Shown: positions 19,478 through 55,125 of the stretch, piece after piece
How positions within the stretch are numbered: the stretch's first letter is position 1
How the letters are laid out: every line of letters starts with the position of its first letter
The notes under the pieces: model-generated
Seen by the model: the letters and a program-made list of their open reading frames with translations, nothing else
The model's database searches: none
What the model was told of the DNA's origin: nothing
From: Streptomyces sp. SPB074
Lineage (GTDB): Bacteria; Actinomycetota; Actinomycetes; Streptomycetales; Streptomycetaceae
NCBI RefSeq assembly: GCF_000154905.1
Contig: NZ_GG770540.1
Coordinates: 1-64,000 of the forward strand
Reading direction: 5' to 3'
Length of the DNA stretch: 64,000 bases
Made by a program: the position numbers and the translations under genes

Positions 19478-19779
19478 ACCAACATCACCGGACTCTACGA
19501 AACTCGGGACAGCTCATCCCAGCCACCCAACTTTCATCTGGCCGGAAGAAGGCTAGGCCATGCGCCTCTGCCATATAAGATCACCCGACCATGCCTGATG
19601 AACGATCAGCCCAGCCGAGCGCGCTCCGGTCCCGCCGCGAGACCACGGCGCAGCTCCAGGCGGGCTCCCCCTCCGGAGGCCTCACGCCGACCGTTGTGTC
19701 CCCTGCCGTGACTTACCGGCGGCACCCGCTGGGCCCGCCCGCGTCAGCCTGCGAATCCGAGCCAACTCAAGGGCTATCC

Positions 19780-21369: not shown

Positions 21370-21371
21370 TC

Positions 21372-21779
21372 ATGAGCTACGTGGAAAGCCCTCAGCAGCG
21401 TGGATGGATGCTGGCTGAGGTCACGGCGGTGCCAGGAGTGCGGCAGGCCATCGTGTTCAGCGCGGACGGGCTGCTGCTGGCCAGTTCGGACGGAATCGAC
21501 AGAGATTCGGCCGACCGGCTGTCGGCCAACTGTTCCGGGTTGCAGTCCTTGGGACGCAGCCTGGGCAGGGAGTTCGGAGAGGATGGCGGGGCCGTACACC
21601 AGCAGATGGTGGAGTTCAAAGGCGGCTTCCTCTTCATGCGGAGTGCCAACGGCGCACACCTCGCGGTGGTGACGGGACCGGTCGTCGATCCCAAGCTGGT
21701 CGCCCGGCAGATGCAGGCCCAGGTCATGAAGATCGGAGCCCACAACCTCAGCAGTCCGCCGCGACAGGGGTCCGCGTGA
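21372..21779 (+). CDS. cvnB: Roadblock/LC7-domain protein CvnB
   Basis: A 135-residue Roadblock/LC7 protein (QRGWMLAEVTAVPGVRQAIV, LLLASSDGIDRDSADRL, GGFLFMRSANGAHLAVV). It starts two bases after the cvnA stop. In conservons this protein is the presumed regulator of the GTPase CvnD and docks on CvnA. It has normal family length and looks intact. Confidence 0.9.
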   Translation: MSYVESPQQRGWMLAEVTAVPGVRQAIVFSADGLLLASSDGIDRDSADRLSANCSGLQSLGRSLGREFGEDGGAVHQQMVEFKGGFLFMRSANGAHLAVVTGPVVDPKLVARQMQAQVMKIGAHNLSSPPRQGSA

Positions 21780-22144
21780 CGGCGTCCGGACAGGATTCGT
21801 TCCCGGACGGTGCGGTTCGTCCTTACGTCATCACCCGAGGGCGCTCGCGGCCCAGTCGTAACACCGTCGGGGTCGAGACCCTCCTGATCGTGGCCGACGC
21901 GCACAAGCCGCTGCCAGTCACGGCCACCCGGGAGGAACTCGCGCTGATGCGCATGTGCGAGCGGCTTATTTCTCTGGTGGAAGCTGCCGCTCATCTCTCG
22001 CTGCCGGTCAGTCTCATGAAGGTACTGGCGTCTGACCTCGTGGACAGCGGTCATCTGTCCGCGCGGTCCGGCGTCCCGCAGGCCGCTCTGCCCGACAGCC
22101 ATTTGCTTCAGGAGGTACTGGATGGGCTCCGCAGGCTCGTCTGA
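21776..22144 (+). CDS. cvnC: DUF742 protein CvnC
   Basis: A 122-residue DUF742 protein with the family start (RPYVITRGRSRPSRNTVGVE) and a winged-helix-like C-terminal part (LSLPVSLMKVLASDLVDSGH). It overlaps cvnB by four bases and cvnD by 23. It is a standard member of the cvnABCD set. Confidence 0.9.
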   Translation: MTASGQDSFPDGAVRPYVITRGRSRPSRNTVGVETLLIVADAHKPLPVTATREELALMRMCERLISLVEAAAHLSLPVSLMKVLASDLVDSGHLSARSGVPQAALPDSHLLQEVLDGLRRLV

Positions 22145-22730
22145 TCGTTATCTGCCCGAAACCGTCCAGCAAGCCGCCAAAATCCTCGTCGTGGGTGCCT
22201 TCGGTGTGGGCAAGACGACGCTCGTCGGGTCCGTCAGCGAGATCGAACCGCTGCGCACCGAAGAGGTCATGACTGTGGCGAGCGTCGGCATCGACGATCT
22301 GGCCGGCATGAGTACCAAGTCCACGACCACCGTCGCCATGGACTTCGGCAGAATCACGCTCAGCTCCCGACTGGTGCTCTACTTGTTCGGAATGCCGGGG
22401 CAGCGCCGGTTCTGGGATTTGTGGGAAGGACTATCCGAGGGCGCCATCGGGGTGCTCGTCCTCATCGACACCCGTCGGCTGGAGGACAGCTTCGACGTCC
22501 TGGAGCAACTGGAGATCCGCGGGCTGCCCTTCGCCGTCGCGGTCAACCAGTTCCCCGACAGCGACCAGTACTCGGTGGAGGAACTGCGCGGCGCCCTTGA
22601 TCTCCTGCCCGACACACCTATTGTCACCTGCGACGCACGCCAATCCAGTTCGTCGGTCGGTTCTCTGGTGAGCCTTGTGGAGTACGTATCGGGCAACCGA
22701 AGTGCGGCCGCCTGGGAGACCATCTCATGA
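22122..22730 (+). CDS. cvnD: Ras-like GTPase CvnD
   Basis: A 202-residue small GTPase. The P-loop is GAFGVGKTTLVG. A TTTVAMDFGRI segment stands at switch I, FGMPGQRRFW gives the G3-like region and AVNQFPD replaces the NKxD base-specificity motif, as is normal in CvnD proteins. It would cycle between nucleotide states under CvnB control. The stop overlaps the P450 start (ATGA). Confidence 0.9.
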   Translation: MGSAGSSDRYLPETVQQAAKILVVGAFGVGKTTLVGSVSEIEPLRTEEVMTVASVGIDDLAGMSTKSTTTVAMDFGRITLSSRLVLYLFGMPGQRRFWDLWEGLSEGAIGVLVLIDTRRLEDSFDVLEQLEIRGLPFAVAVNQFPDSDQYSVEELRGALDLLPDTPIVTCDARQSSSSVGSLVSLVEYVSGNRSAAAWETIS

Positions 22731-23989
22731 GCCTCACACCACCACCCGCATGCCCGGCACACAGCACACAGTCCACCGGGCTGATGCCTCTGTCGGCGGC
22801 CGTGGGGTCGGGGGACCCGCAGGCCGCCTACCGCAGGCTGCGTGACGAGTGGGGCAATGTCGCCAAGGTCGAACTGGAACCGGGTGTACCCGCCTGGCTC
22901 GTCCTCGGCTACCGGGAACTCCTGACCATCACCCGGCAGGAACAGTTGTTCTCCCGCGACGCCCGCAACTGGCGCGATCTCAACGACGGCCTCGTGCCAC
23001 TCCATTCAGGCCTTCTTCCGATGATGGCCTGGCGGGCGAACGTCATCGGTGCCGACGGCCCGGAGCATCGTCGGCTGCGCATGCCGCTCGACAACGCTGT
23101 CGCAAGGATGGACCAACGGCGGGTCCGCCGGGAGGTGGAGGCCCTCTGCACAGAGCTCATCGCCGAGTTCTCGCCGCGCGGCCGTGCGGATCTGGTGAAC
23201 GAGTACGCGACCGTCGTGCCCATGCTGTCGCTTGCCTCGCTCTTCGGTCTGGACACCACAGAGGGACGGGAGTTGCTGGACGCCCTCATCGCACTGTTCG
23301 GCAGCGCCGACAACTCGCAGAGCGGCAACAGGACCTTCGAGCAGATCATCCTGGACACCGTGCGTGAGCGGCGGCGCAACCCTACTAGTGACATGACCAC
23401 GGCGTTCGTCAGCGATCCGAACCTGCACAATGAGGCGGAGCATCTCCAGTCGGTCGTCGTGATGATCTCGGCGGGCAATGAGACGGTGACGGCCTGGATC
23501 TCCCACACGCTACGACTGATGCTCACCGATCCGCGGTTCGCCGCGCGCCTACGCGGCGGCCGACTCGGTATCGACGACGCGCTGGACGAGGCGCTGTGGC
23601 GCGATCCTCCCATGAACAACATGCCTGCCAGATACGCGTTGCACGACACCGAGCTGGGTGGTCACGTCATCCAGCGCGGCGACTGTCTGATTCTCGGTCT
23701 GTGCGGCGCCAACGACGACCCAGCGATCCGCCCCGGGAGCGACGAGGAGAGCTGGGGAAACCGAGCGCATCTCGCCTTCTCCGCCGGTCCGCATGTCTGC
23801 CCCGCGCAGGTTCCCGCCCGGCTGATCACCCGTACAGCGGTGCAGACCGCCCTGCACCTGCTGCCGGACATGCGGCTCAGCATCCCGGCAGAAGAGGTGA
23901 CGTGGCGCCCCTCTCCCTGGACACGGGTGCCGGTGTCGCTTCCCGCAGAGTTCTCTGCCTCCCGCATCGCCACCGGCATCCGCCGGTGA
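22727..23989 (+). CDS. CYP157-like cytochrome P450 with ExxW in place of ExxR
   Basis: A 420-residue P450 coupled to cvnD. The heme-cysteine loop is FSAGPHVCPAQ and the oxygen-binding I-helix is VVMISAGNETVT. The K-helix reads DEALWRDPP, so Trp stands where the ExxR arginine should be. This departure is known for the actinobacterial CYP157 family, which occurs in conservons next to a CYP154 gene. The next gene is the matching partner type. Without Arg the E-R-R triad is missing, so the fold or redox use may differ. The substrate is unknown. Confidence 0.85.
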   Translation: MSLTPPPACPAHSTQSTGLMPLSAAVGSGDPQAAYRRLRDEWGNVAKVELEPGVPAWLVLGYRELLTITRQEQLFSRDARNWRDLNDGLVPLHSGLLPMMAWRANVIGADGPEHRRLRMPLDNAVARMDQRRVRREVEALCTELIAEFSPRGRADLVNEYATVVPMLSLASLFGLDTTEGRELLDALIALFGSADNSQSGNRTFEQIILDTVRERRRNPTSDMTTAFVSDPNLHNEAEHLQSVVVMISAGNETVTAWISHTLRLMLTDPRFAARLRGGRLGIDDALDEALWRDPPMNNMPARYALHDTELGGHVIQRGDCLILGLCGANDDPAIRPGSDEESWGNRAHLAFSAGPHVCPAQVPARLITRTAVQTALHLLPDMRLSIPAEEVTWRPSPWTRVPVSLPAEFSASRIATGIRR

Positions 23990-24050
23990 CACCTTCGATC
24001 CCCGCCGGACCTGCGGCCACGGCTGCGGGTCCCGTAACCTGGAGCAACGT

Positions 24051-25298
24051 ATGACGCGTACAGCTTCCTCCGAGGGGCACATACCGGTCATCGCTCTCGA
24101 CCCCCGCGGAACAGACCACCACGCTGAAGCCGCCCGACTTCGCGAACTCGGCCCCGTGGTCCGTGTCCGGCTTCCCGGCAACGTCATGGCCTGGTCGGTC
24201 ACAGAACATGCCCTGCTCAACGACATGATCGCCGACCCACGTTTCAGCAAGGACTGGCGCAACTGGAGTGCCATCATCCGTGGCGAGATCGAGGACGGCT
24301 GGCCGCTCATAGGCATGGTGAAAGTGACCAACATGGTCACATCCGACGGCCAGGAACACCGGCGGCTTCGCAAACTGGTCACCCAGACCTTCACCCCACG
24401 TCGCGTCCAGGAGATGCGCCCACGGATCGAGCACATCATCGACGACCTTCTCGACGCGCTTCCCGACCGGGCGGACGTTGACGGCAGTGTGGACCTGCGC
24501 AGGCACTTCGCGCACCCTGTACCGATGCAGGTCATCTGCGAGTTGTTCGGCGTCCCTGCGCACGAGCGTCGGCGGCTCCAGGAGTTGATGGACAACATAT
24601 TCCGCTCGGACCTGCCTCCCGAAGAGGTCACCGCTAGCCAGATCGAGCAGTACCAACTGCTGGGCCGGGTCGTGGAGGCCCGCCGCGATGATCCCGGTGA
24701 TGACCTCACCAGCGCGCTCATCGCCGCGCGTGAGGCGGACCCCGACGCGCTGAGCGAGGAGGAGCTCGTCGGCACTCTCCTGCTGATGCTGTCGGCGGGG
24801 CAGGAGACCACACTGAGCCTCATCACCAACGCGGTACGCGCACTGCTGACCCATCCTGATCAGCGCGCTCTCGCCACGGGTGGGGACGCCTCGGTCTGGG
24901 CGGACGTGGTGGAGGAGACCCTGCGCTGGGACGCGCCGATCGGCAACTTCCCCTTCCGCTACCCGTTGGAGGACGTGGAGATCGCCGGGGTCCCCATCCC
25001 CAAGGGCGAAGCGATCATGGCCCCGTATAGCGCAGTCGGCCGCGACCAGCGCCAACACGGTTCCGATGCGGACCGGTTCGACATCACCCGTGAGCGGCAC
25101 AGGCACCTGGCATTCAGCCACGGCCCTCACTTCTGCCTCGGGGCCCCGCTGGCACGCCTGGAGGCCGGGCTGGCCATCCCGGCCGTCTTCCGACGCTACC
25201 CGGACCTCTCGTTGGCGGTCGACCCCGGCGCACTGGTCCCCGTACCGTCCCTCTTCTCCAACAGCTCCTCGACCCTGCCGGTACGCCTCGGCAACTGA
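24051..25298 (+). CDS. CYP154-like cytochrome P450
   Basis: A 415-residue P450 with all standard motifs: I-helix LMLSAGQETTLS, K-helix EETLRWDAP (ExxR intact) and heme loop FSHGPHFCLGAPLARLE. It begins 61 bases after the CYP157-like gene and ends just before a strong terminator, closing the conservon operon. CYP154 enzymes hydroxylate macrolide or steroid-like substrates; the substrate here cannot be predicted. No ferredoxin gene is in this operon, so electrons must come from elsewhere, possibly the ferredoxin at 47147. Confidence 0.87.
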   Translation: MTRTASSEGHIPVIALDPRGTDHHAEAARLRELGPVVRVRLPGNVMAWSVTEHALLNDMIADPRFSKDWRNWSAIIRGEIEDGWPLIGMVKVTNMVTSDGQEHRRLRKLVTQTFTPRRVQEMRPRIEHIIDDLLDALPDRADVDGSVDLRRHFAHPVPMQVICELFGVPAHERRRLQELMDNIFRSDLPPEEVTASQIEQYQLLGRVVEARRDDPGDDLTSALIAAREADPDALSEEELVGTLLLMLSAGQETTLSLITNAVRALLTHPDQRALATGGDASVWADVVEETLRWDAPIGNFPFRYPLEDVEIAGVPIPKGEAIMAPYSAVGRDQRQHGSDADRFDITRERHRHLAFSHGPHFCLGAPLARLEAGLAIPAVFRRYPDLSLAVDPGALVPVPSLFSNSSSTLPVRLGN

Positions 25299-42605: not shown

Positions 42606-43479
42606 TGAGCCTCTTCCAACCTGAAGAGTCTGACCGTGAGTTGGACTGCTCTGCATAACGACGAAGCTCCTGGTAGACGGGTTCTCGACCAAGACCAACC
42701 GTCGCTCCAAGAGCTCCGAGTGCTTGTCTATCCGTCGTCGATCGACCTCTCCAGTCGCACCCTGCGGTGCCTGGCGGGACACCTCGCCACCCGCCGAGGC
42801 GAGATCGGCACCCGGTGGCGGAGGCTGACTGCCGGACGGCAGGCCCTCCTCGCCCTGGCGCATTTGCGGTGCGGTGACACATACGCCCATCTCGCCGCCG
42901 GATTCGGTGTCGGCATCGCCACCGCATACCGCTACATACGCGAGGCCGTCGATGTCCTGTCCATGCTCGCGCCCACCCTGGACGAGGCGATGTGCATCGC
43001 ACAAGCCAAAGCGTTCGTGATCCTGGATGGCACCCTGCTGCCGATCGACCGGATCGCCGCCGACACCCCGTACTACCCGGGCAAACACAAGCGGCACGGC
43101 ATGAATGTCCAGGTTCTCGCCGATCCCTTCGGGCGGCTGCTGTGGGCGTCGCCCGCGCTTCCCGGCTCCACGCACGACCTGACCGCCGCACGCATCCACG
43201 GGATCGTCGACGTCGACCTCAAGGCTTACGCCGACAAGGCGTACCAGGGTGCCGGCCGCTCCGTCCGGGTCTCCTTCCGGGGCCGTCGCCTCAAGCGGTG
43301 GCAGCGACGGCACAACAGCACGCACGCCAAGATCCGTGGCCTTGGCGAACAGGCCATGGCCACCCTCAAGGGCTGGCGCCTGCTGCGGAAGCTCCGCTGC
43401 AGCACCAACCGCATCACCGCGATCGTCCAAGCCGTACTCGTCCTCCACCACGCATCAGCGTGAGGATGGAAAAGGCTCA
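42606..43479 (+). mobile_element. IS5-family element, intact relative of 25742-26632
   Basis: About 874 bp with ends TGAGCCTCTTCCAACCT / GGATGGAAAAGGCTCA and an intact transposase. It separates the IS3 remnant from the helicase fragment. Confidence 0.8.
42636..43463 (+). CDS. IS5-family transposase
   Basis: A 275-residue DDE transposase: helix-turn-helix part (LRCGDTYAHLAAGFGVGIAT), then AFVILDGTLLPIDRIAADTP, ADKAYQGAGRSVRVSFRG and HNSTHAKIRGLGEQAM. The Trp that is a stop codon in the 25757-26584 copy is present here (ATLKGWRLLRKL). The true start may be a little downstream. Confidence 0.85.
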   Translation: MSWTALHNDEAPGRRVLDQDQPSLQELRVLVYPSSIDLSSRTLRCLAGHLATRRGEIGTRWRRLTAGRQALLALAHLRCGDTYAHLAAGFGVGIATAYRYIREAVDVLSMLAPTLDEAMCIAQAKAFVILDGTLLPIDRIAADTPYYPGKHKRHGMNVQVLADPFGRLLWASPALPGSTHDLTAARIHGIVDVDLKAYADKAYQGAGRSVRVSFRGRRLKRWQRRHNSTHAKIRGLGEQAMATLKGWRLLRKLRCSTNRITAIVQAVLVLHHASA

Positions 43480-43846
43480 GTCGGTGCTCGCAGGCTTCCG
43501 CGAGGCGCATCGTCGCCGTGGTCCGCTTACTGTCGACCGCGTAGCCGCGTTGGCCCGGCGCTGTCATCGGGCTGGCCGGCGCCACGTGGTGCGCCTCGTC
43601 GACCACCAGCATGTCGAACGCGTACCGCTTGGCCGTGCCTGCGCTGCGCACATCGGCCAGCACGTCGCGCAGGAGGCGCTGCGCCCGCAATGACGGCAGC
43701 CACGCCATGCTCACGATTACGCGCGGGAAGAGCCGGAACGGGTTGGCGTTCAGCCCGTGGCTCCGTCGTACCTTCGCCATGAGCTCGCTGTCGACGATGA
43801 CGAAGTCCAGGCCGAATTTCTCCCGCATCTCGTCCTGCCACTTTAA
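43480..43846 (-). pseudogene. Fragment of a DrmD-type SNF2/DEAH helicase
   Basis: About 120 codons on the minus strand: KWQDEMREKFGLDFVIVDSE, the ANPFRLFPRVIVSMAWL segment, the Walker-B-type motif FDMLVVDEAHHVAPASP, then GYAVDSKRTTATMRLAEACE. The order and wording match the helicase of DISARM defence systems (DrmD) and its close relatives. Both ends are cut by ISs (43479 and 43847). No other DISARM gene is present in the window. Confidence 0.75.
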
Positions 43847-44246
43847 CGAGCTCGTGCACGGTAGGCGGTGAGACGTCGAGGATGACGGTGGGGCGCCGTC
43901 CTCACCTCTGTCGTGCCGAAGTCAGATCCGCGGTCTGCTGATGGGACAGCAGACCGGCGACGGCTTGGACGATGTCGCTCATGTGCTCGCGGCGGCCGAG
44001 ATGGCGGGCCAGCGCCCGCCAGTTCTTCAAGTGCGCGATGCCGTGTTCGACCCGGATACGCCGCGAGGAATGCGCCTTGCGCTGCCGCTCATGCATTTCC
44101 TCGTACCAGTCCGGAGCGTTCTTCTTGAACTTGCGATGCGGCGGTGTCACCACACGTCCGCCGCTCTGGGCACCCAGGCCCTGGTAGCCGGCATCGGCGA
44201 GAATCTCCACGACGGGGCCGTCGGCCAGGAGCTTGACCAGCCCTAA

Positions 44247-45103
44247 GAAGCCATCTCATTTGGGTGACTCGGTAGTCTATGAGTCATGGTGGGGCTTGTT
44301 GAGCGGCTGGTGCCGGACGAATTGTGGCAGTTGTTCCAGCGGGTGGTGCCTGAGGCGCCGTCGCGGCCGCAGGGTGGTGGTCGGCGTCGGCACGGTGACC
44401 GGGAAGTGCTGGCCGCGATCGTCTTCGTGGCCACGTCGGGTTGTACCTGGCAGCAGCTGCCTTCGGCGTCGTTCGGCCCGTCCGGAGCGACTGCCCACCG
44501 GCGGTTCTCGGAGTGGTCGAAGGCCAGGGTGTGGGCCAAGCTCCACCGCCTGGTCCTCGACGAGCTCGGTACGCGCGGGGAGCTGGACTGGTCGCGGTGC
44601 GCGATCGACTCGGTGAACATGCGGGCCTTGAAAAGGGGGACCTGACAGGTCCGAATCCTGTCGACCGGGGCAAGTACGGGTCGAAGATCCACCTGATCAC
44701 CGAGCGGACCGGTCTGCCCATATCCGTCGCAATCTCCGGTGCCAACGTCCACGACAGCCAAGCCCTTATCCCGCTCGTGAAGGGCATACCGCCTATCAGC
44801 TCCCGCCGGGGCCCCCGTCGACGCCGACCCGGAAAGCTCCACGCCGACAAGGGATACGACTACCGCCACCTGCGGCAATGGCTGTCCGGACGCGGAATCC
44901 GGCATCGCATCGCCCGCAAAGGCGTCGAGACCTCGCAGCGACTCGGCCGACACCGCTGGACCATCGAACGCACCATGTCCTGGCTCGCCGGCTGCCGACG
45001 ACTCCACCGACGCTACGAACGCAAAGCCGACCACTTCCTCGCCTTCACCAGCATCGCCTGCACCCTCATCTGCTACCGCAGACTCACCAAATGAGATGAC
45101 TTC
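44247..45103 (+). mobile_element. IS5-family element nested in another IS
   Basis: 857 bp with ends GAAGCCATCTCATTTGG / CCAAATGAGATGACTTC and TAA target duplications (44244-44246 and 45104-45106). Confidence 0.88.
44286..45094 (+). CDS. IS5-family transposase made by frameshifting
   Basis: The first frame (44286 to about 44645) encodes VPDELWQLFQRVVPEAPSRP, IVFVATSGCTWQQLP and the first Asp in CAIDSVNMRA. The second (to 45094) encodes GSKIHLITERTGLPISVAIS, LHADKGYDYRHLRQWLSGRG and RWTIERTMSWLAGCRRLHRR. They overlap at an AAAAGGGGG run (44630-44638), the classic slippery site of this subgroup, so the full protein needs a programmed shift. Confidence 0.8.
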
Positions 45104-46206: not shown

Positions 46207-46929
46207 ATGGAGGCAGGGCCGACCGGTGATGGTCAGCGGGACGGGCAGGGGCCGCGGCGCCGCCGGGAGATCGTGGCCGCGGTCCAGCGGTTGCTCGGCG
46301 AATGGGGCAGTTCCGAGCGGCTGACGATGCGGGCGGTTGCCAAGGAGGTGGGCATCTCCGCTCCGAGCATCTACCTGCACTTCCAGGACAAGACGGAGCT
46401 GGTATGGGCGGCGCTGGAGGACCGCTACGGTGAACTGGCCGCCCAAATGGCTGCTGCAGCCCTGGACTGTGGTGACGAGGATCCGCGGGGCAGGGTGCGG
46501 GCGCGGGCGCGCGCGTACTGCCGGTTCGCCCTGGGCAGTCCGGGCCATTACCGGCTCATGTTCGAGGCGCATCAGCCGGCGGCGGATCCGAGCAGGATCG
46601 GTGCTCACCCCGCCCGCCGCATATCCGCCGGTCTGCGCGACGGCCTGAACAGCTGTGCAGAGCATGGGTTCGGTCTGTCGCTGCCGGTGGAACAGGCCGC
46701 GCAGACACTGTGGGCCGGTCTGCACGGCATGCTCTCGCTGCACCACAGTCTCTACTGCGACGAGTCGTCAGAGGGCCTGGTCCTGCAGCTTTCCGACGGT
46801 CTGGTCGACTCGCTCGTGGCCCGCGGGCCTAACGTTCCCTTCCACGCCGCAAGCGGATCCGAGACCGAGGCGTCGCGCAGGATCAGGGCACTCAGGAATG
46901 CTCCGGAGCCGGACAGTCCGCAGTTGTAG
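46207..46929 (+). CDS. TetR-family transcriptional regulator
   Basis: A 240-residue protein. It has an N-terminal TetR helix-turn-helix (RREIVAAVQRLLGEWGSSER, then TMRAVAKEVGISAPSIYLHF, QDKTELVWAALEDRY) and a C-terminal TetR_C_33-like ligand domain (GSPGHYRLMFEAHQP, QTLWAGLHGMLSLHHSLY). It lies 217 bases upstream of the oxidative operon on the same strand, and the palindrome at 47063-47071 is a possible operator. AAAGGGAG is 10 bases before the ATG at 46207. Confidence 0.87.
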   Translation: MEAGPTGDGQRDGQGPRRRREIVAAVQRLLGEWGSSERLTMRAVAKEVGISAPSIYLHFQDKTELVWAALEDRYGELAAQMAAAALDCGDEDPRGRVRARARAYCRFALGSPGHYRLMFEAHQPAADPSRIGAHPARRISAGLRDGLNSCAEHGFGLSLPVEQAAQTLWAGLHGMLSLHHSLYCDESSEGLVLQLSDGLVDSLVARGPNVPFHAASGSETEASRRIRALRNAPEPDSPQL

Positions 46930-47025
46930 CGGGAGACGCCGCCCTCGGTGAAGGGGCGGCGCCCGGTCGCGCGCTCCGCGTTCACACTCTCTTCACATCG
47001 TCAACAACCCTCTGCGTGCGGCTGG

Positions 47026-47071
47026 TTGTCGCTCCGTAGGTGCGGGAGTACAGTCGCCGCTGAACTAAGTT
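47026..47071 (+). promoter_or_regulatory. Promoter and palindrome of the P450 operon
   Basis: TTGTCG at 47026-47031 and TACAGT at 47049-47054 are separated by exactly 17 bases, close to the sigma-70 (HrdB-type) pattern. The palindrome AACT-A-AGTT at 47063-47071 lies at or just after the expected transcription start, a typical repressor position. The first gene starts 76 bases further on. Confidence 0.55.
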
Positions 47072-47146
47072 AGGTGCCCAGGGCAACAATGTGGCGCCTG
47101 ACCCGCGTCGCCCGTAGTAGCGGGCTGGACGGAAGTGGATCCCCCC

Positions 47147-47341
47147 ATGGACATCACCATCGACTTCGACAAATGCTGCGGTGCCGGCCAGTGCGTACTG
47201 GCGGCGCCGGAGGTCTTCGACCAGCGCGACGAGGACGGCGTCGTGGTCCTGCTCGATGACAACCCGCCGGCCGAACAGACCGAGAACGTGGTCCAGGCCG
47301 CAGCGGTCTGCCCTGCCGCCGTGATCCAGGTGCGCGCGTGA
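47147..47341 (+). CDS. Ferredoxin ([3Fe-4S] type)
   Basis: A 64-residue ferredoxin: MDITIDFDKCCGAGQCVLAA, then EVFDQRDEDGVVVLLD and ENVVQAAAVCPAAVIQV. The cysteines at CCGAGQC and VCP fit the 3Fe-4S ferredoxins that serve actinobacterial P450s, in which the second cysteine of the classic set is replaced. It is the first gene of the operon and should carry electrons from the reductase (next gene) to the two P450s. The stop overlaps the next start. Confidence 0.9.
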   Translation: MDITIDFDKCCGAGQCVLAAPEVFDQRDEDGVVVLLDDNPPAEQTENVVQAAAVCPAAVIQVRA

Positions 47342-48555
47342 GTGCCGAAGCTGCGGCCACGACTGCGTCGCGGATCACCGTGGTCGGCGCTTCCGCAGCC
47401 GGACTGAGTGCCGTGGAAGGGCTGCGGCGTGCGGGCTACACCGGAACACTCACGCTGATCGGTGAAGAGCAGCACCTGCCCTACGACCGGCCCCCGCTGT
47501 CGAAGCAACTGTTGTCCGGCGTCTGGGACGCCGACCGGCTCCACCTGCGCGGCGAGGACGACTTTCAGGCCCTCGGCGTGGAGCTGAAGCTGGGGCAACC
47601 GGCTACCGCTCTGGACACCGCTGCCCGCCAGGTCGTTCTGGCCGACGGCACAGTCGTCGGCTACGACGCCCTGGTGGTGGCCACCGGCACGCGGGCCCGG
47701 CGGCTGCCGGGCACCGAATCGGTGCGCGGGGTGCACGTCCTGCGCACGCTGGAGGACGCGCTCGCGCTGCGCGAGGATCTGGCGGCCAAGCCGCATCTGG
47801 CCGTGGTCGGCGGCGGCTTCGTCGGGGCCGAGGCCGCCGCCGTGGCCCGCCGCTTGGGCTGCGAGGTCACCCTTCTCACCGACACCGCTCAGCCGATGGG
47901 CGACGCCCTCGGTGACGAGTTGGGCGCCCTGCTGCGCACCGTCCACCAGGAACACGGCGTCAGGATCGAGACCGGAGCTCGTGTCGAGGAGGTCCTCGCC
48001 GACGGCGGGCGGGCGAGCGGGGTACGTCTCGCCGACGGCCGCACGCTGACCGCGGACGCCGTCCTGGTCGGTATCGGAGCCCGACCGAACACCGAATGGC
48101 TCACCGGCAGCGGCGTTCCGGTCGGCAACGGGGTCGAGTGCGATGCGACCCTGTACGCCGGGTTTGGGGTGTGGGCGGCAGGTGACGTCGCCTGCTGGCT
48201 CCATGCCCGCACCGGTGAACCGTGGCGTATCGAGCACCGCACCAATGCCGCTGAGCAGGGCCTGGCCGTCGCCCGCAACATCCTGGCCGGACCCGGGCGG
48301 ACTGTCGCGTTCGATCCGGTGCCCTACGTGTGGTCCGACCAGTACGACCTGAAAATCCAGATCTACGGCAGGACCCGTGGCGCCGACGAGGTCCGCGTCG
48401 TCGAAGGCAGCACCGCTGAGCGCAAGCTGGTCGCCCTCTACGCCAGGAACGGCCGGATCTGCGCGGCGGTCGGCATCAACATGGTCCGGGCCCTGCGCGG
48501 CTACCGGGCACAGGTCGCTGCGGCGGCCCCTCTTCTCACCGGGAGTGCGGCATGA
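47338..48555 (+). CDS. FAD-dependent ferredoxin reductase
   Basis: A 405-residue pyridine-nucleotide-disulfide-type reductase without redox cysteines. It has an FAD motif (ITVVGASAAGLSAVEGLRRA), ATGTRARRLPG, an NAD motif (LAVVGGGFVGAEAAAVARRL), a second FAD contact (GFGVWAAGDVACW) and a C-terminal reductase dimerisation part. It resembles putidaredoxin/rhodocoxin reductases and would pass electrons from NADH to the ferredoxin. GTG start, overlapping the ferredoxin stop by four bases. Confidence 0.9.
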   Translation: MSAEAAATTASRITVVGASAAGLSAVEGLRRAGYTGTLTLIGEEQHLPYDRPPLSKQLLSGVWDADRLHLRGEDDFQALGVELKLGQPATALDTAARQVVLADGTVVGYDALVVATGTRARRLPGTESVRGVHVLRTLEDALALREDLAAKPHLAVVGGGFVGAEAAAVARRLGCEVTLLTDTAQPMGDALGDELGALLRTVHQEHGVRIETGARVEEVLADGGRASGVRLADGRTLTADAVLVGIGARPNTEWLTGSGVPVGNGVECDATLYAGFGVWAAGDVACWLHARTGEPWRIEHRTNAAEQGLAVARNILAGPGRTVAFDPVPYVWSDQYDLKIQIYGRTRGADEVRVVEGSTAERKLVALYARNGRICAAVGINMVRALRGYRAQVAAAAPLLTGSAA

Positions 48556-49829
48556 GCGACACCCTCAGGGCCGGAGTTGTCGGCCTGGGCATGATCGGCG
48601 GCGGGGTCGCCGTCAGTCTGGCCCGCAGCGGACGCGTCCCCGCAGTCTACGACGTCCGCCCCGACGCCGCCAGGGACCTGGCCGGTGTGCCCGATCCGCT
48701 CGGCTCGCCTGCCGAGGTGGCCGAGGTGTCCGACGTAGTGATGGTCGCGGTGGTCAACGCCGACCAGGCACGCGAGGTCATCGGCGGCAAGGACGGCCTG
48801 CTGCGAGCAGCTCGGCCGGGCCTGACCGTCGTGCTGCTCGCCACGGTTGCCTTGCCGGTCGTCCACGAACTGGCCGCGCTCTGCTCCGAGTCCGGTGTGG
48901 GCTTCCTCGACTGCGGGGTGACCCCGGGCGACCAGGCCGCCGAGCACGGCATGGTCGCCATCCTCGGCGGCGAGCAGAGCATCGTGGAGGCGGCGCTGCC
49001 CATCCTTGAGGACTGGGCGAAGAAGGTGGTGCACTGCGGTCCGTCCGGCGCCGGTATGGCCACCAAGATCGCCCGCAATGTCGTCACGTACGGCAGTTGG
49101 CGCACGGTTGCCGAGGCCGCGGCCCTGGCCCGTGCCGCAGGTGTGGACACCGCCCGTCTTGCCGAGGTCATCGACGCGGCCGACCCCGAGGGCCGCACGC
49201 TGCTGCAACTGTTGCGGATGCAGGACGCCGACGGCGTGCTGCCCGGGGCTGTCGGCCGGCAGATCGAACCGTTGATGACCAAGGACCTCGAAGCCGCCCG
49301 CGACCTCGCCGCCGCCCTCGGTGTCCAGGCGCCCCTCGTCGAGACGGTACGCACCCAGGCTCGTCGCACCCTCCAGCTGGAGGCCGATGTGGCACCAGTC
49401 CCGGCACCGGCGAAGGAGGACGCCCGTGCATACGGACTGCACATGATGGACCAGGCGTACGGCCCCGGTTTCAGCGCTGCCGTCCAGGATGCCGACGACC
49501 CCTTCAGTACCGAGACCGTCGACTACCTCTTCGCCCAGGTGTGGGGCCGCGCGGGCCTGTCCGTCCGTGACCGTCGGCTACTCACCCTCGGCGTCGCCGC
49601 CACCGTCGCCCGGCCCGAACTCGTGCAAGTGATCGCCAACGGGGCGCTGGTCAACGGGGAGCTGAGCGCGGAGCAGCTGCGCGAGGCCGTCCTGCACCTG
49701 GCCCTCTACACCGGCTGGTGCAAGGCCACGGCCACCCACACCGGCGTCACCGCCGCGATCGCCGCGCACAACGCCGCCCAGCCCCCCACCAGCGGGCCCC
49801 ACACCCTCGCGCAGGAGCAGCAGCAATGA
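48552..49829 (+). CDS. Fusion of a 6PGDH/HIBADH-type dehydrogenase and a CMD domain
   Basis: A 425-residue two-domain protein. Residues 5-290 are a 3-hydroxyisobutyrate-dehydrogenase-type enzyme (RAGVVGLGMIGGGVAVSLAR Rossmann loop, then DCGVTPGDQAAEHGMVAILG, GPSGAGMATKIARNVVTYGS with the catalytic Lys). Residues 300-405 are a carboxymuconolactone-decarboxylase-like domain (FAQVWGRAGLSVRDRRLLTL, EQLREAVLHLALYTGWCKAT). A linker around 280-300 joins them. The same CMD type is a separate gene at 52372. The fusion suggests consecutive steps in one degradation path. ATGA overlap with both neighbours. Confidence 0.87.
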   Translation: MSDTLRAGVVGLGMIGGGVAVSLARSGRVPAVYDVRPDAARDLAGVPDPLGSPAEVAEVSDVVMVAVVNADQAREVIGGKDGLLRAARPGLTVVLLATVALPVVHELAALCSESGVGFLDCGVTPGDQAAEHGMVAILGGEQSIVEAALPILEDWAKKVVHCGPSGAGMATKIARNVVTYGSWRTVAEAAALARAAGVDTARLAEVIDAADPEGRTLLQLLRMQDADGVLPGAVGRQIEPLMTKDLEAARDLAAALGVQAPLVETVRTQARRTLQLEADVAPVPAPAKEDARAYGLHMMDQAYGPGFSAAVQDADDPFSTETVDYLFAQVWGRAGLSVRDRRLLTLGVAATVARPELVQVIANGALVNGELSAEQLREAVLHLALYTGWCKATATHTGVTAAIAAHNAAQPPTSGPHTLAQEQQQ

Positions 49830-51040
49830 CCGACATCCCCGTCAATCAGCCCGTCACCCGCGTTACTGGCGCCCCCCTCGACCCGCCGGCCGAGTACACC
49901 CGGCTCCGCGAGGACCAGCCCATCGTCAAGGCCCGCTTTCCCAACGGCTCGACGGGCTGGCTCGTCACGCGTTTCGAGGAGGGCAGCCAGGTCTTCACCG
50001 ACCCGCGCCTGAGCGCCCGCCGTCCACGCCACGACACCCCTGAGGGAGAGATCGCCGAGGCCGGGGAGGACGCCCCCTTCGATGCCGGTTTCGTGATGAT
50101 GGACGAGCCCGAGCACGGCGCCTACCGTCGGTTGCTGACTGCCCGCTTCACCCCCAAATCGGTGCAGAACAAGCTCCAGCCCTATCTCGACAAAATCGTT
50201 GACGAGCACCTGGACGCCATCGCCGCAGGCCCCGAGACCTTCGACTTCGTCCAGGCCATGGCCCTGCCCATCCCATGTCTGGTGATCTGCGAACTGCTCG
50301 GGGTCCCCTACGAAGACCGTGACGGTTTCCACGACGCCACCGTCGATCTCATGGACATGGCCAAGAGCCGCGAGGAACGCGACAGGGGTGCCCACTGGCT
50401 CATCGACTACATCACCAGCCTCGTCGCCGACAAGCGCCGCACCGGTGCCAGGGACGGCATCCTCGCCGAACTCATCCACAAGAGCGATGGCGACGACGCG
50501 GCACTGACCGAGAAGCAGCTCATCGGCCTGGGCGTGCTGCTGCTGTTCGCCGGACACGACACCACGGCCGCCATGATGGGGCTGTCCACCCTCACCCTGC
50601 TCACCCACCACGAGCAGCGCGAGCAGATGCTGGCCCACCCGGAGAAGACGGGCACCATGGTTGAGGAGCTGATGCGCTACCTCACCATCGTCCAGTTCGG
50701 CCTGGGCCGCGTGGCCAAGGAAGACCTCGAACTCGCGGGCGCTCAGGTGAAGAAGGGTGATCTCGTCGTCGTCGCGATGAACGCCGCCAACCGCGACCCG
50801 CGCGCCTTCCAGGACCCCGACACCCTCGACATCGACCGCAAGATGGCCCGCCACATGGGCTTCGGCTACGGCGTCCACGCCTGTCTCGGCCAGAACGTCG
50901 CCCGCGCCGAACTCAGGACCGTCCTGCCCAAGCTCTTCCAGCGCTTCCCCAACCTGCGGCTCGCCACCCCGCTGGAAGAAGTCCCCATGGACTTCACCGG
51001 CACCAACTACGGCGTCCGCAAGCTCATGGTCACCCGCTGA
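49826..51040 (+). CDS. Cytochrome P450 (first of two in operon)
   Basis: A 404-residue P450 with I-helix LLLFAGHDTTAAMMG, K-helix EELMRYLTI (ExxR intact) and heme loop FGYGVHACLGQNVARAEL. This is a CYP105/107-like bacterial soluble P450. The ATG at 49826 overlaps the stop of the fusion gene. Electrons are presumably supplied by the ferredoxin/reductase pair at the start of the operon. The substrate is unknown. Confidence 0.92.
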   Translation: MTDIPVNQPVTRVTGAPLDPPAEYTRLREDQPIVKARFPNGSTGWLVTRFEEGSQVFTDPRLSARRPRHDTPEGEIAEAGEDAPFDAGFVMMDEPEHGAYRRLLTARFTPKSVQNKLQPYLDKIVDEHLDAIAAGPETFDFVQAMALPIPCLVICELLGVPYEDRDGFHDATVDLMDMAKSREERDRGAHWLIDYITSLVADKRRTGARDGILAELIHKSDGDDAALTEKQLIGLGVLLLFAGHDTTAAMMGLSTLTLLTHHEQREQMLAHPEKTGTMVEELMRYLTIVQFGLGRVAKEDLELAGAQVKKGDLVVVAMNAANRDPRAFQDPDTLDIDRKMARHMGFGYGVHACLGQNVARAELRTVLPKLFQRFPNLRLATPLEEVPMDFTGTNYGVRKLMVTR

Positions 51041-51065
51041 GCCGCCCCCGGGGCCCAGGCAGCGT

Positions 51066-51114
51066 TCCCCGGAGCAGCTTGCGCCGTCCCCTGACAGGCA
51101 GCGCGCTCCGGGGA
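51066..51114 (+). promoter_or_regulatory. Hairpin between the two P450 genes
   Basis: TCCCCGGAGC / GCTCCGGGGA, a 10-bp stem with a long 29-base loop in the only sizeable gap of the operon (126 bases). It may partly terminate or stabilise the message, or it may be chance. Confidence 0.4.
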
Positions 51115-51166
51115 GCGGCCCCGGCCGCGGCATGACCCCACGTCTTTCGCAGGCAAGGAGTTCCCC

Positions 51167-52375
51167 ATGACTGTCTCCTTCGAACCCGCCCCCGCTTTCC
51201 CCCTGAAGCGTGGATGCCCCTTCTCGCCACCCGAGGACGCTACGGCCTTCCGGGAAAGCGGCCGGCCGCACCGGGTGACGATCTGGGACGGCAGCACGCC
51301 CTGGCTGATCACCCGGCACGACCACATCCAGCAGCTCCTCGGAGCAGTCGGCATGATCAGCGCGGACGTCACCGACCCCGGCTTCCCCAACACCAGCGAC
51401 GCCCAGCCCGCCGTCGAGGGCAACATCTTCTTCCGCAAGGACGGCACGGAACACCTCCCGGTACGCCGCATCCTCAACCCGGACTTCACCGCCAAACGCT
51501 CCGAAGCGCTACGCCCGCGCATCGCCGAACTCACCGACCGGCTCCTCGACGACCTGCTCGCCATGGACGGCCCCGTCGACCTCTTCGAGCATTTCGCGCT
51601 GGCCCTGCCCACCGTGGTGATCTGCGAAGTCCTCGGCGTCCCCTACGAGGACAGCACCACCGTGCACGAGTCCTCGAAGAAGATGGTGCAGCTCGCCATC
51701 GCGCAGGACGAGAAGGTGGCCGCCCACCGCGCTCTGCACGAGCTGTTGGCCCGTCACATGGAGGCCAAGCGCTCCCGCCCCGACAACGGACTGCTGTCCC
51801 GTCTGGTGAACACCCACGTCGACGACAAGGGCGACCTGACGTTCGAGGAAGCTGTGGGGCTCGGCGTCCTCGTGATCGGCGCCGGGCACGAGACCACCGC
51901 CAACATGATCGCCCTGGGCATCCTCGCGCTCCTGCGCGAACCCTCACAGCGCGACCTCCTGCTGTCCGACCCGGTGGCGTACTCCTCGACCGCAGTCGAG
52001 GAGATGATGCGCTACTGGAGCATGGTGCAGACCGAACCGCGCCGCGTCCTGACCGAGGACATCGAGGTGGGCGGCGTACTACTGAAGGCCGGCGAGGGCA
52101 TCATCTGCAACCTGCCCGCCGCCAACCGGGATCCCTTGGTCTTCGCCGACCCCGAACGCCTGGACATCACCCGCAGGGAGCGCAAGCACATTGGCTTCGG
52201 CTACGGCGTGCACCAGTGCCTGGGCCAGAACCTCTCCCGGGTCGAGATGCAGGTGGCCTGGCCCAAACTGTTCGAACGGATCCCGGGCTTGCGGCTCGCC
52301 GTCGACGAGAGCGAACTGCACTTCCACGACGATGCCCTCACCTACGGAGTTGAGACGCTGCCGGTGACCTGGTGA
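51167..52375 (+). CDS. Cytochrome P450 (second of two in operon)
   Basis: A 402-residue P450 with I-helix VLVIGAGHETTANMI, K-helix EEMMRYWSM and heme loop FGYGVHQCLGQNLSRVEM. It is close in type to its upstream partner (similar ER..FGYGVH wording), so the two may have arisen by duplication and could act one after the other on the same compound. AAGGAG precedes the ATG. The stop overlaps the next start. Confidence 0.92.
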   Translation: MTVSFEPAPAFPLKRGCPFSPPEDATAFRESGRPHRVTIWDGSTPWLITRHDHIQQLLGAVGMISADVTDPGFPNTSDAQPAVEGNIFFRKDGTEHLPVRRILNPDFTAKRSEALRPRIAELTDRLLDDLLAMDGPVDLFEHFALALPTVVICEVLGVPYEDSTTVHESSKKMVQLAIAQDEKVAAHRALHELLARHMEAKRSRPDNGLLSRLVNTHVDDKGDLTFEEAVGLGVLVIGAGHETTANMIALGILALLREPSQRDLLLSDPVAYSSTAVEEMMRYWSMVQTEPRRVLTEDIEVGGVLLKAGEGIICNLPAANRDPLVFADPERLDITRRERKHIGFGYGVHQCLGQNLSRVEMQVAWPKLFERIPGLRLAVDESELHFHDDALTYGVETLPVTW

Positions 52376-52782
52376 GCACCCAGGACACACCGGGCCCGGA
52401 CCACTTCGCCCACCTCGCCGCGACCGGCCGCGCCACGCAGGCCGAGGTCATGCGCGTACCGCAGGAGGCAGTCCGGAGCGAGCCCGGATCGCTCAGCGAC
52501 CTGGCGACCAAAATCGTCTTCGGCGACCTGTGGAACAGAGCGGGACTGAGCGTCCGCGAGCGGCGCATCGTCACGCGCACGGTCCTGGCCATGCTCCAGT
52601 CCCACCAGTTCCACGGACACCTGCATGGCAAGGCCGCCCTGGACAGTGGTGACCTGACCGAGGCCGAACTCCGGGAGATCGCCGTGCAGATCGCCTACAA
52701 CGCCGGCTGGCCCGTTGCCACCTCCTTCGAATGGACCGTGGACAAGGCCACCGGCACAAAACCACCAGTGGAGGACCTGTGA
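52372..52782 (+). CDS. Carboxymuconolactone decarboxylase-family protein
   Basis: A 136-residue protein with the CMD helical pattern (FGDLWNRAGLSVRERRIVTR, LTEAELREIAVQIAYNAGWP). It lacks the CxxC of AhpD-type members, so it is more like the gamma-CMD branch that acts on lactones. It resembles the C-terminal domain of the fusion protein at 48552. GTG start overlapping the P450 stop (GTGA). Confidence 0.85.
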   Translation: MSTQDTPGPDHFAHLAATGRATQAEVMRVPQEAVRSEPGSLSDLATKIVFGDLWNRAGLSVRERRIVTRTVLAMLQSHQFHGHLHGKAALDSGDLTEAELREIAVQIAYNAGWPVATSFEWTVDKATGTKPPVEDL

Positions 52783-53582
52783 GCGGACGGCTTCAGGGCA
52801 GGCGCGCGATCGTGGTCGGCGGAGGCCAGACCCCTGGCGCCACCACCGGCAACGGCCGCGCAGTCGTCCTCTCCTTCGCCCGCGAGGGCGCACAGGTTCT
52901 GGTCGTGGACCGAGACTTGGACTCGGCCGAGGAGAGCGCCGAACTGGTGCGCAAGGAAGGCGGCACGGCGACCGCTCACCGGGCGGACATCACCGTCGAG
53001 GACGAGTGCGCGGGCATTCTCGACGCGGCTCTGGCGGTCCTGGGACATGTCGACGTGCTGCACAACAACGTCGGTGTCGTCCCCGCCGGCCGCACCGAGG
53101 ACCTCGGTGCCCAGACATGGCGTCAGGGCTTCGAGGTCAACCTCACCAGCATGTGGCTGACCTGCAAGGCCGTCCTGCCCCACATGCGCCAGCGGCGGAG
53201 CGGTGCGATTGTCAACATCTCCTCCATGGCGGGCCTGCTCGCGGGTGGCGAAGCGATCGCCTACACCACCTCCAAGGCCGCGGTGCACGCCATGACCCGC
53301 AGTCTGGCACTGGAGTACGCACCCCACGGAATCCGGGTCAACTGCATCGCCCCCGGCATGATGGACACCCCCATGGGCGTCGACGCCCCGGCCCGGGCGG
53401 AAGGTTCCTCCCGCGAGGACGTGGCCGCCAAGCGGGCCGCGCTGGTTCCGATGGGGCACCAGGGCACGTGCTGGGACGTTGCCAACGCCGCCCTGTTCCT
53501 GGCCTCTCAGGAGGCCGCCTTCATCACGGGCACGGTGCTCGCGGTGGACGGCGGGTTCACTCTGACCTCGCGCATGAGTTAG
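52779..53582 (+). CDS. Short-chain dehydrogenase/reductase
   Basis: A 267-residue classical SDR. It has a TGxxxGxG-like cofactor loop (IVVGGGQTPGATTGNGRAVV, slightly altered), NNVGVVPAGR, catalytic Ser-Tyr-Lys in VNISSMAG and AYTTSKAAVHAM, and a C-terminal GTVLAVDGGFTL. It would oxidise an alcohol produced by the P450s or reduce a ketone. GTG start overlapping the previous stop; last gene of the operon. Confidence 0.9.
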   Translation: MSGRLQGRRAIVVGGGQTPGATTGNGRAVVLSFAREGAQVLVVDRDLDSAEESAELVRKEGGTATAHRADITVEDECAGILDAALAVLGHVDVLHNNVGVVPAGRTEDLGAQTWRQGFEVNLTSMWLTCKAVLPHMRQRRSGAIVNISSMAGLLAGGEAIAYTTSKAAVHAMTRSLALEYAPHGIRVNCIAPGMMDTPMGVDAPARAEGSSREDVAAKRAALVPMGHQGTCWDVANAALFLASQEAAFITGTVLAVDGGFTLTSRMS

Positions 53583-53872
53583 CGCAGCGCAGCCTTCCCG
53601 GGGCATCCCACAAGCACCCGCACCCGTGGGCGAGTGCCGGTCACTAGGTCGGGCTGCTGTGCACGGGATCGCCGCAGCAGCAGCGGGCGTTATCGGGACG
53701 TTGTACGGGCCATCGGTGAACAACCGGTGGCCCGGCAGGCAGCCGTGCCCCCTTGGTCGACGGCGCCGACCGGAGCTTCTCCAACCGGACCGGCTGGGTC
53801 GACCTGAAGCTTCCCCTTGATCGTGGACACCTGGAGACTGGGATCTTGAGGTTCCAGAGGAAGTAGCACCAG

Positions 53873-54172
53873 GTGGGAAGCAAGTACACGAAGCGGTACA
53901 CCGAGGAGTTCAAGCGGGACGCGATCGCGCTCGTCGATTCCTCGGGCAAGACGGTCACCGCCGTCGCCCGGGAGCTTGGCATCAGCTCCGAGTCCCTGCG
54001 CGGCTGGTACCGCAAGGCCAGGGCCGACCGGGGCGAGGGTGAGTCCGGTGAGCTGACCAGCGCCGAGCGCGAGGAGCTCAAGCGGCTGCGCAAGGAGGTC
54101 CGCGAACAGAAGCAGACGATCGAGATCCTGAAAAAAGCGACGGCCTTCTTCGTGAAGGAGAACGACCGGTGA
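53873..54172 (+). CDS. IS3-family OrfA (third type)
   Basis: 99 residues: helix-turn-helix (FKRDAIALVDSSGKTVTAVA, RELGISSESLRGWYRKARAD) and a coiled C-terminus (EREELKRLRKEVREQKQTIE). The stop overlaps the OrfB start (GTGA). AAAAAAG near 54131 is a possible slippery site. Confidence 0.85.
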   Translation: MGSKYTKRYTEEFKRDAIALVDSSGKTVTAVARELGISSESLRGWYRKARADRGEGESGELTSAEREELKRLRKEVREQKQTIEILKKATAFFVKENDR

Positions 54173-55125
54173 GCGAGCTGTACCGGTTGATCCATGCGGA
54201 GAAGGCGACGTACCCGATCGTCCTGCTGTGCCGGGTGCTGAAAGTCGCCCGCTCCTCCTACTACGCATGGTGCGAGGGCGAGGCCGCACGCCGTGCCCGG
54301 CAAGCCGCCGACGACGCGCTCGCCCACGAGATCACCGTGGTGCACATCGCCTCCCGCCACACCTACGGTGTCCCGCGCATCCACGCCGAACTACGCCGCC
54401 TGGGCCGGCGGGTGAACCGCAAGCGCATCGCTCGTGTGATGCGTGAGCGCGACATCCGTGGTGTCACCCGGCGCAGACGGCGTTCGCTGACCCGGCCCGA
54501 CAAGAAGGCGACACCGGCCCCGGACCTGATCGGCCGCAGCCGCTCGGGGTACGGGCCGTACTCGCCGATCGGCAGGTACGGCTCAATGAAATCCCACTCC
54601 GGGTCGGTCAGTTGCACTCGCGTCACGTACGACGGTCTACCGGACCAGACCGTGCCACGAAGGCACATCCCGCAGATTGATCACGACTCGATACGCTCCC
54701 ACCTGGCCACCCGCGAGGTCGTCGGCTACGCCATGGCCGGCCACCACCGCGCCGAGCTGATCGTCGACGCTCTCAACATGGCCCACGGCCGCGGCGGACT
54801 CGAGCCCGGCTGCGTGGTTCACAGCGATCGCGGCAGCGAATACACGTCGGCCCAATTCCGCCTACGAGTAGAGAAGTTAGGCCTGCGGCAGAGCTGCGGA
54901 CGCACCGGGTCATGCTTCGACAACGCCACCGCGGAAAGTTTCGGGGCCCTGCTCAAAGAGGAGATCGGCACCCGCACCTGGCCCGACCGGGCCACCGCCC
55001 GAGCCGAGGTCTTCTCCTTCATCGAGACCTTCTACAACCGCCGCCGACTGCGCAAGCACCGGACTTTCGGCTATGTCACCCCGGCCGAGACCAGGCAGCG
55101 GCAGCAGCACACCCTCGCGGCATAA
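54169..55125 (+). pseudogene. Chimeric IS3 OrfB with IS5 sequence replacing the first catalytic region
   Basis: The N-terminal part (LCRVLKVARSSYYAWCEGEA, HTYGVPRIHAELRRLGRRVN) and the C-terminal part (EVVGYAMAGHHRAELIVDAL, VVHSDRGSEYTSAQFRLR, FDNATAESFGALLKEE) are normal. Between them, where VGDITY with the first catalytic Asp belongs, 56 codons of foreign DNA are read in frame (SRSGYGPYSPIGRYG to PRRHIPQIDHDSIRS). Without that Asp the transposase should be inactive although the frame is open. Confidence 0.8.

Follow-up and report, generated by a model that had tools for sequence, protein, structure and literature searches.

Does the row of oxidative genes at positions 46207-53582 of the window, a 64-kb stretch of contig NZ_GG770540.1 of Streptomyces sp. 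SPB074 to which all our coordinates refer, represent one coupled operon or a set of genes brought together from different sources? The initial annotation had described a TetR gene followed by seven enzyme genes, coupled by stop/start overlaps at almost every junction: a ferredoxin, a reductase, a dehydrogenase fused to a CMD domain, two cytochrome P450s (here P450a and P450b), a free CMD protein, and a short-chain dehydrogenase (SDR). All eight frames occur in that order, each with a product above a Pfam cut-off, and overlaps of four bases (GTGA, ATGA, ATGA, GTGA and GTGA) join the enzyme genes at five of six junctions. The sole junction without an overlap is that between P450a and P450b, where a gap of 126 bp separates the genes, and this gap is explained when the row is viewed as two joined modules. 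The row appears to consist of two separate, portable P450 cassettes joined end to end, and we consider it reasonably probable that the whole is a composite, substrate-induced oxidative cassette with a catabolic or detoxifying role.

Relatives of the fusion were gathered from one genome per species in a set of 84,980 species (16 loci), and further from plasmids and from 392 genomes of the genus Streptomyces, with neighbourhoods read within about 10 kb. Eight of the 392 genomes gave matches at E 1e-60, one of them through the dehydrogenase part only. Module A contains a TetR-family regulator gene (TetR-A, not always adjoining), a ferredoxin, usually a reductase, the fusion and P450a. It was found at 24 loci (23 besides the window) in Streptomyces, Frankia and Nocardia, and on two plasmids too. 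TetR-A adjoins the module in 19 of the 24, the window included, and the fusion is followed by P450a in all 23 loci whose contig extends far enough, that of L022 stopping before P450a. The ferredoxin is absent in L045 and the reductase in L020, L045 and L053. Note that the 24 loci are not all independent, given the close pairs L021/L030, L029/L052 and L015/L016 and a double count of S. mexicanus (L013, L017), and that the draft of L024 has the reductase and fusion in broken frames. Genes of related loci were called with a codon-bias caller and checked with tblastn, which recovered a missed ferredoxin in L016; starts are possibly misplaced in places (P450b of L048 and L049).

Module B is composed of a divergent TetR gene (TetR-B), a ferredoxin, with or without a reductase, and a core of P450b, free CMD and SDR genes. 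It occurs in four other genomes, G102 (locus L046), G381 (L048), G258 (L049) and S. sulphureus (L027), and in the last of these it lies tail to tail with module A. P450b is 74-83% identical in G102, G381 and G258, and the SDR 71-85% identical in all four. The window holds module A together with only the P450b-CMD-SDR core of module B, and P450b directly follows P450a in one of 23 testable module A loci, the window itself (0 of the 22 others). P450a was found in 3 of 150 genomes of the genus (the window genome, G022 and G102), always beside the fusion. Broader searches yielded no additional module: the free CMD protein matched only the window genome at E 1e-20 in a class-wide set of 394 genomes, and the fusion, searched at E 1e-40 in a phylum-wide set of 296, matched the window genome and one dehydrogenase of 39% identity over residues 4-261 only.

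The joint between the modules can be placed closely. The end of P450a and its flank align with genome G189 up to position 51142 (81% over 122 columns, blastn). The flank proper, 51058-51142, reaches a local score of 92 against G189, with a best of 33 in 200 shuffles, and the G189 flank ranks first among 555 gene 3' flanks from related loci (next score, 47). P450a of L024 and P450a of G189 are about equally near that of the window (94.3 and 93.8%), but the L024 flank shows no such alignment. From 51151 onwards the window matches the leader and start of the module B P450b gene of G102, and of 566 gene leaders compared with the interval 51143-51166, that of G102 gives the top score (27, against 20 for the runner-up). 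This right-hand match is short and comes from one relative; the other three module B P450b leaders, as called, do not match. Since the left homology ends at 51142 and the right match starts at 51151, a recombination seam most likely lies at 51143-51150, or at the widest at 51143-51166. In the module A part of the gap lies a strong hairpin (-66.8 kcal/mol, z -3.4); its counterpart in G189 (-59.3, z -3.3) sits between convergent genes, a position that suits a terminator. A generic terminator scan of 46900-53900 found none (2.1 terminator-like sites were expected in shuffles), and the gap hairpin has no T-run. Because the modules are separate units elsewhere and meet here at a seam with the hairpin kept between them, the single coupled operon that had been proposed is not supported as it was described.

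The closest rival explanation is that the two cassettes met by chance and that P450b, CMD and SDR are stranded and barely expressed behind the hairpin of module A. The seam and the retained hairpin agree with this, as do the absence of a TetR-B orthologue from the window genome (the best match is TetR-A, at 37%), the absence of the junction from all 22 other module A loci where it would be visible, and the IS3-family transposase genes directly 3' of the SDR gene (53873-55125). IS5-like transposase pieces also lie 5' of the TetR gene (42720-44645), and the cassette is thus bracketed by insertion elements. However, the frames of P450b, CMD and SDR are intact and retain their GTGA overlaps, modules A and B are also adjacent in S. 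sulphureus, and the two co-occur beyond chance in the genus sample: module A in seven of the 392 genomes, a module B-type CMD in four, and both in three (hypergeometric probability 1.4e-5, or 5.9e-4 without the window genome, with genome relatedness ignored). We judge a stranded core to be unlikely.

The redox genes also connect the modules. A single reductase gene serves as the only one across both modules in all four genomes with two complete cores, in module A in the window, G381 and S. sulphureus and in module B in G102, and the sharing of the reductase between modules is therefore likely. The module B reductases of G102, G258 and G022 are 66-68% identical to that of the window, closer than every listed reductase outside module A in those genomes. 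A P450, a ferredoxin and a reductase that uses flavin adenine dinucleotide (FAD) are encoded together, as in class I P450 systems, and the cysteine spacing of the small ferredoxin indicates that it is probably of the 3Fe-4S type. The P450s themselves are 37% identical to each other. CYP105AS1 is the nearest solved structure of P450a (304 bits), and the nearest structures of both include several CYP105 enzymes, a family in which we take membership to mean more than 40% identity to named members.

Control of the row by its regulator is suggested by a conserved near-palindrome, CTGAACTAAGTTAGGTG, which differs from a perfect palindrome by 3 mismatches, a match expected 0.01 times in the window. 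This putative operator is found ahead of the first enzyme gene at 21 of the 24 loci with module A. It is present at all 19 loci with an adjacent TetR-A; the three loci that lack it (L015, L016 and L024) all lack an adjacent TetR-A, and L029 and L052 have it without one. Each of the seven module A genomes searched contains exactly one site with no mismatch and the two other genomes searched contain none, which suggests that TetR-A probably controls mainly this unit; counts of matches with up to 3 mismatches did not exceed those of a reversed-pattern control. Module B loci display a different palindrome, GTAAATATAC or similar, and in G102 and G381 TetR-A ranks second among the matches to TetR-B. 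A generic sigma-70 scan of 46900-53900 reports no promoter, so that the promoter call rests on conservation across loci: TACAGT stands a few bases before the operator in 15 of the 24 loci (one base nearer to it in Frankia), preceded in part of the loci by a TTG-type hexamer. The interval once suggested for a gel shift, 47026-47071, covers the hexamers but ends inside the operator, which runs to 47076. Of the initial proposals, those of a self-contained redox chain, of a TetR gene together with its conserved operator, and of P450s, dehydrogenases and CMD proteins that form an oxidative set are supported.

The dehydrogenase part of the fusion scores 94.4 bits with NAD_binding_2 (cut-off 21) and 40.3 with NAD_binding_11 (cut-off 30). 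A structure model of the protein (pLDDT 79.7, pTM 0.62) matches tartronate semialdehyde reductase 1vpd over residues 5-276 (Z 25.8, root-mean-square deviation 3.2 over 239 residues), a match of the dehydrogenase part that is tied with other beta-hydroxyacid dehydrogenases, the top rows lying within Z 1. The fusion shares with 3-hydroxyisobutyrate dehydrogenase and tartronate semialdehyde reductase this fold and an invariant Lys/Asn pair (K172 and N176, in 18 of 18 aligned sequences), which we take to be the catalytic residues of the family. It differs from beta-hydroxyacid dehydrogenases in the attached CMD domain and in its substrate motif, DCGVTPG, invariant in the 18 sequences, in place of D-x-P-V-S-G-G, presumably the canonical form. 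On two sphingomonad plasmids the dehydrogenase and CMD proteins are encoded by separate adjacent genes, which suggests that they act jointly; in L033 and L054 they are neighbours on opposite strands. The free CMD protein is 34% identical to the fused domain over 88 columns. Neither contains CxxC, which we assume to be the active site of AhpD-type peroxidases. The SDR scores 185.3 bits with the mycofactocin-coupled model TIGR03971, below the cut-off of 300. Modules A and B repeat one plan, a P450, an NAD(P) dehydrogenase and a CMD protein, and this repetition is the strongest hint at mechanism.

Our preferred reading is an inducible cassette by which a hydrophobic compound would be degraded or detoxified, and the following sequence of events would be consistent with its parts. 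TetR-A would occupy the operator just after the promoter until released by a ligand that is probably either the substrate or one of its early products. The FAD reductase and then the small ferredoxin would carry electrons from NAD(P)H to both P450s, and each P450 would hydroxylate its substrate. The new alcohol would be oxidised by an NAD(P)-dependent dehydrogenase, the CMD-joined beta-hydroxyacid type in the case of P450a and the SDR in that of P450b, and the resulting carbonyl compound would next be processed by a CMD-family protein, which might decarboxylate or isomerise it. The row would have originated when the P450b-CMD-SDR core came to follow module A, leaving behind the TetR, operator, ferredoxin and reductase of module B. 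We also advance, as a speculation that we hold quite loosely, a general and swappable oxidation unit in which a P450, an NAD(P) dehydrogenase and a CMD protein would remove or rearrange carbon next to a newly oxidised position; the fusion would pass an unstable beta-keto acid from the dehydrogenase to the CMD domain, and the window would represent two such rounds on one substrate fed by a single shared electron chain.

Several observations weigh against the composite, substrate-induced cassette. The retained hairpin may halt transcription ahead of P450b. Genome G258 carries module B without module A, the module A loci L020 and L053 (the latter of genome G372) lack a reductase, and a search of G372 at E 1e-25 gave no module B CMD. 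Genome G022 combines module A with a rump of module B and so possesses two such reductases. As read from the alignment, the fused domain has nothing equivalent to the histidines of the free CMD protein that align with a PcaC-type histidine, and it may accordingly not act like PcaC. Finally, the catabolic context is not conserved: the window genome gave no match at E 1e-60 to the HsaA-like protein that lies beside module B in G102.

The genes could instead tailor a specialised metabolite, the P450s and dehydrogenases decorating an endogenous product. In support of this, both P450s have CYP105 enzymes among their nearest solved structures, and a review (PMC4265290) assigns that family to biosynthesis as well as to xenobiotic breakdown. 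Nevertheless, no synthase or other biosynthetic core gene was found among the 28 window proteins scanned (part of the 70 genes called there, and not all scanned frames need be real genes), no neighbour of module A recurs across genera when proteins are clustered at 45% identity, the Frankia loci sharing neighbours among themselves, and the modules are sporadic in the genus, with module A carried by plasmids as well. Such a role seems to us rather improbable. Cleavage of an aromatic ring through a lactone pathway like that of PcaC, which the initial annotation had drawn from the CMD domains and which would fit the aromatic catabolic genes adjoining module B in G102 and those some kilobases away from module A in NBC_00564, is very improbable, as both CMD proteins fall far below the cut-off of the PcaC equivalog TIGR02425 (36.9 bits for the fusion and 39.5 for the free protein, against 155.7), the proteins scanned include no ring-cleavage dioxygenase, and neighbours vary from locus to locus.

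Each part of the row belongs to a known family. Like PcaC and the two-CMD-domain protein 4g9q, which the window matches, both CMD proteins belong to the CMD family above the Pfam cut-off; unlike PcaC, they are not accompanied by any protocatechuate gene among the proteins scanned. With the CYP105-ferredoxin pairs of Streptomyces, of which SuaC/SuaB of S. griseolus is presumably an example, the window shares a CYP105-like P450 and a small ferredoxin. Such pairs are inducible by herbicide, as stated in the same review (PMC4265290). The window differs from them by its own reductase, the dehydrogenase-CMD fusion, the TetR gene with its operator, and the second P450 set. The statement that no described pathway has this gene order agrees with the titles and abstract openings among the open-access hits listed, in which we found no description of the module, of a CMD fusion in a P450 cassette, or of the composite row. 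What emerges from the analysis is a P450 module scattered among actinobacteria, with a conserved operator of its own and a dehydrogenase-CMD fusion, a ready-made P450 system with redox partners for biocatalysis. With the joint placed to a few dozen bases, the locus also illustrates how a longer P450 pathway may be built by joining cassettes and dropping spare regulator and redox genes.

Table 1. Features of the composite row in the window
Feature	Coordinates	Strand	Evidence
TetR-family regulator A, 240 amino acids	46207-46929	+	Pfam TetR_N 37.2 bits (cut-off 24) and TetR_C_33 48.8 bits, both above cut-off
Promoter-like hexamers TTGTCG (47026-47031) and TACAGT (47049-47054), 17-bp spacer	47026-47054	+	Conservation across loci
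Putative TetR-A operator CTGAACTAAGTTAGGTG	47060-47076	+	Conserved near-palindrome just after promoter
Small ferredoxin, 64 amino acids	47147-47341	+	Pfam Fer4_13 44.7 bits (cut-off 24.5)
FAD ferredoxin reductase	47338-48555	+	Pyr_redox_2 198.6 bits, Reductase_C 55 bits
Fusion of beta-hydroxyacid dehydrogenase (about 1-282) and CMD domain (about 320-400)	48552-49829	+	NAD_binding_2, NAD_binding_11 and CMD above cut-off
Cytochrome P450a	49826-51040	+	Pfam p450 103.9 bits
Module A 3' flank with hairpin (arms 51063-51075 and 51105-51117)	51041-51142	+	Homology to G189 flank, fold
Most likely seam between module A and module B core	51143-51150 (widest 51143-51166)	.	End of left homology, start of right match
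P450b ribosome-binding leader, G102 module B type	51151-51166	+	Best leader match is G102
Cytochrome P450b	51167-52375	+	Pfam p450 112.4 bits
Free CMD-family protein, 136 amino acids	52372-52782	+	Pfam CMD 32.6 bits (cut-off 23)
Short-chain dehydrogenase (SDR)	52779-53582	+	adh_short_C2 208.2 bits

The surroundings of the modules offered further observations. In NBC_00564, genes for a 3-keto-5-aminohexanoate cleavage protein, an aldehyde dehydrogenase and catA lie some kilobases from module A. In L029 (5036-17399) and L052, module A stands beside a common block that encodes a 3-keto-5-aminohexanoate cleavage protein, an aldehyde dehydrogenase, an SDR, another P450 and a further reductase. Beside module B of G102 (L046, 50-8435) are HsaA-, HsaC- and HsaD-like proteins, below equivalog cut-offs, with a flavin reductase, a dienelactone hydrolase and a CoA ligase, possibly a meta-cleavage set. 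The idea that a ring-cleavage partner is generally present was rejected, as HsaA-like matches at E 1e-60 occurred in only 4 of 44 genomes, G102 and three at 35-36% identity, one of which carries neither module. The module B rump of G022 (L078, 4979-9531) retains TetR-B (68%) and a reductase (75% identical to that of G102) without the P450b-CMD-SDR core, near genes for a CoA ligase, an enoyl-CoA hydratase and a thiolase. Its ferredoxin was undetected by tblastn and an exact search of L078 for the module B operator core was negative; a remnant of the ferredoxin start and a stretch similar to the operator were read by eye.

A fused dehydrogenase-CMD gene, 62% identical, was also found in a Ferruginibacter metagenome-assembled genome (L025, 7542-11230) in a different context: its reading frame shares a single base with the end of a GH3 glycosidase gene, a rhamnosidase-like protein is encoded further on, and the locus has no match to the window P450s. 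Neither this distant neighbourhood, beside glycoside hydrolases, nor that of L034 (Paenibacillus) gave a usable substrate clue. The window genome carries a second P450-ferredoxin-reductase row (L082, 8692-11350), which lies some 46 kb before the end of contig C2 and has 46% identity to P450b, 50% to the ferredoxin and 51% to the reductase; a cupin-like protein and ABC transporters are encoded close by. Within the window itself, at 19591-25298, a gene for a protein with a histidine-kinase-type ATPase domain has two tandem P450 genes downstream, the first a weak match, a group that we take to resemble a Streptomyces conservon.

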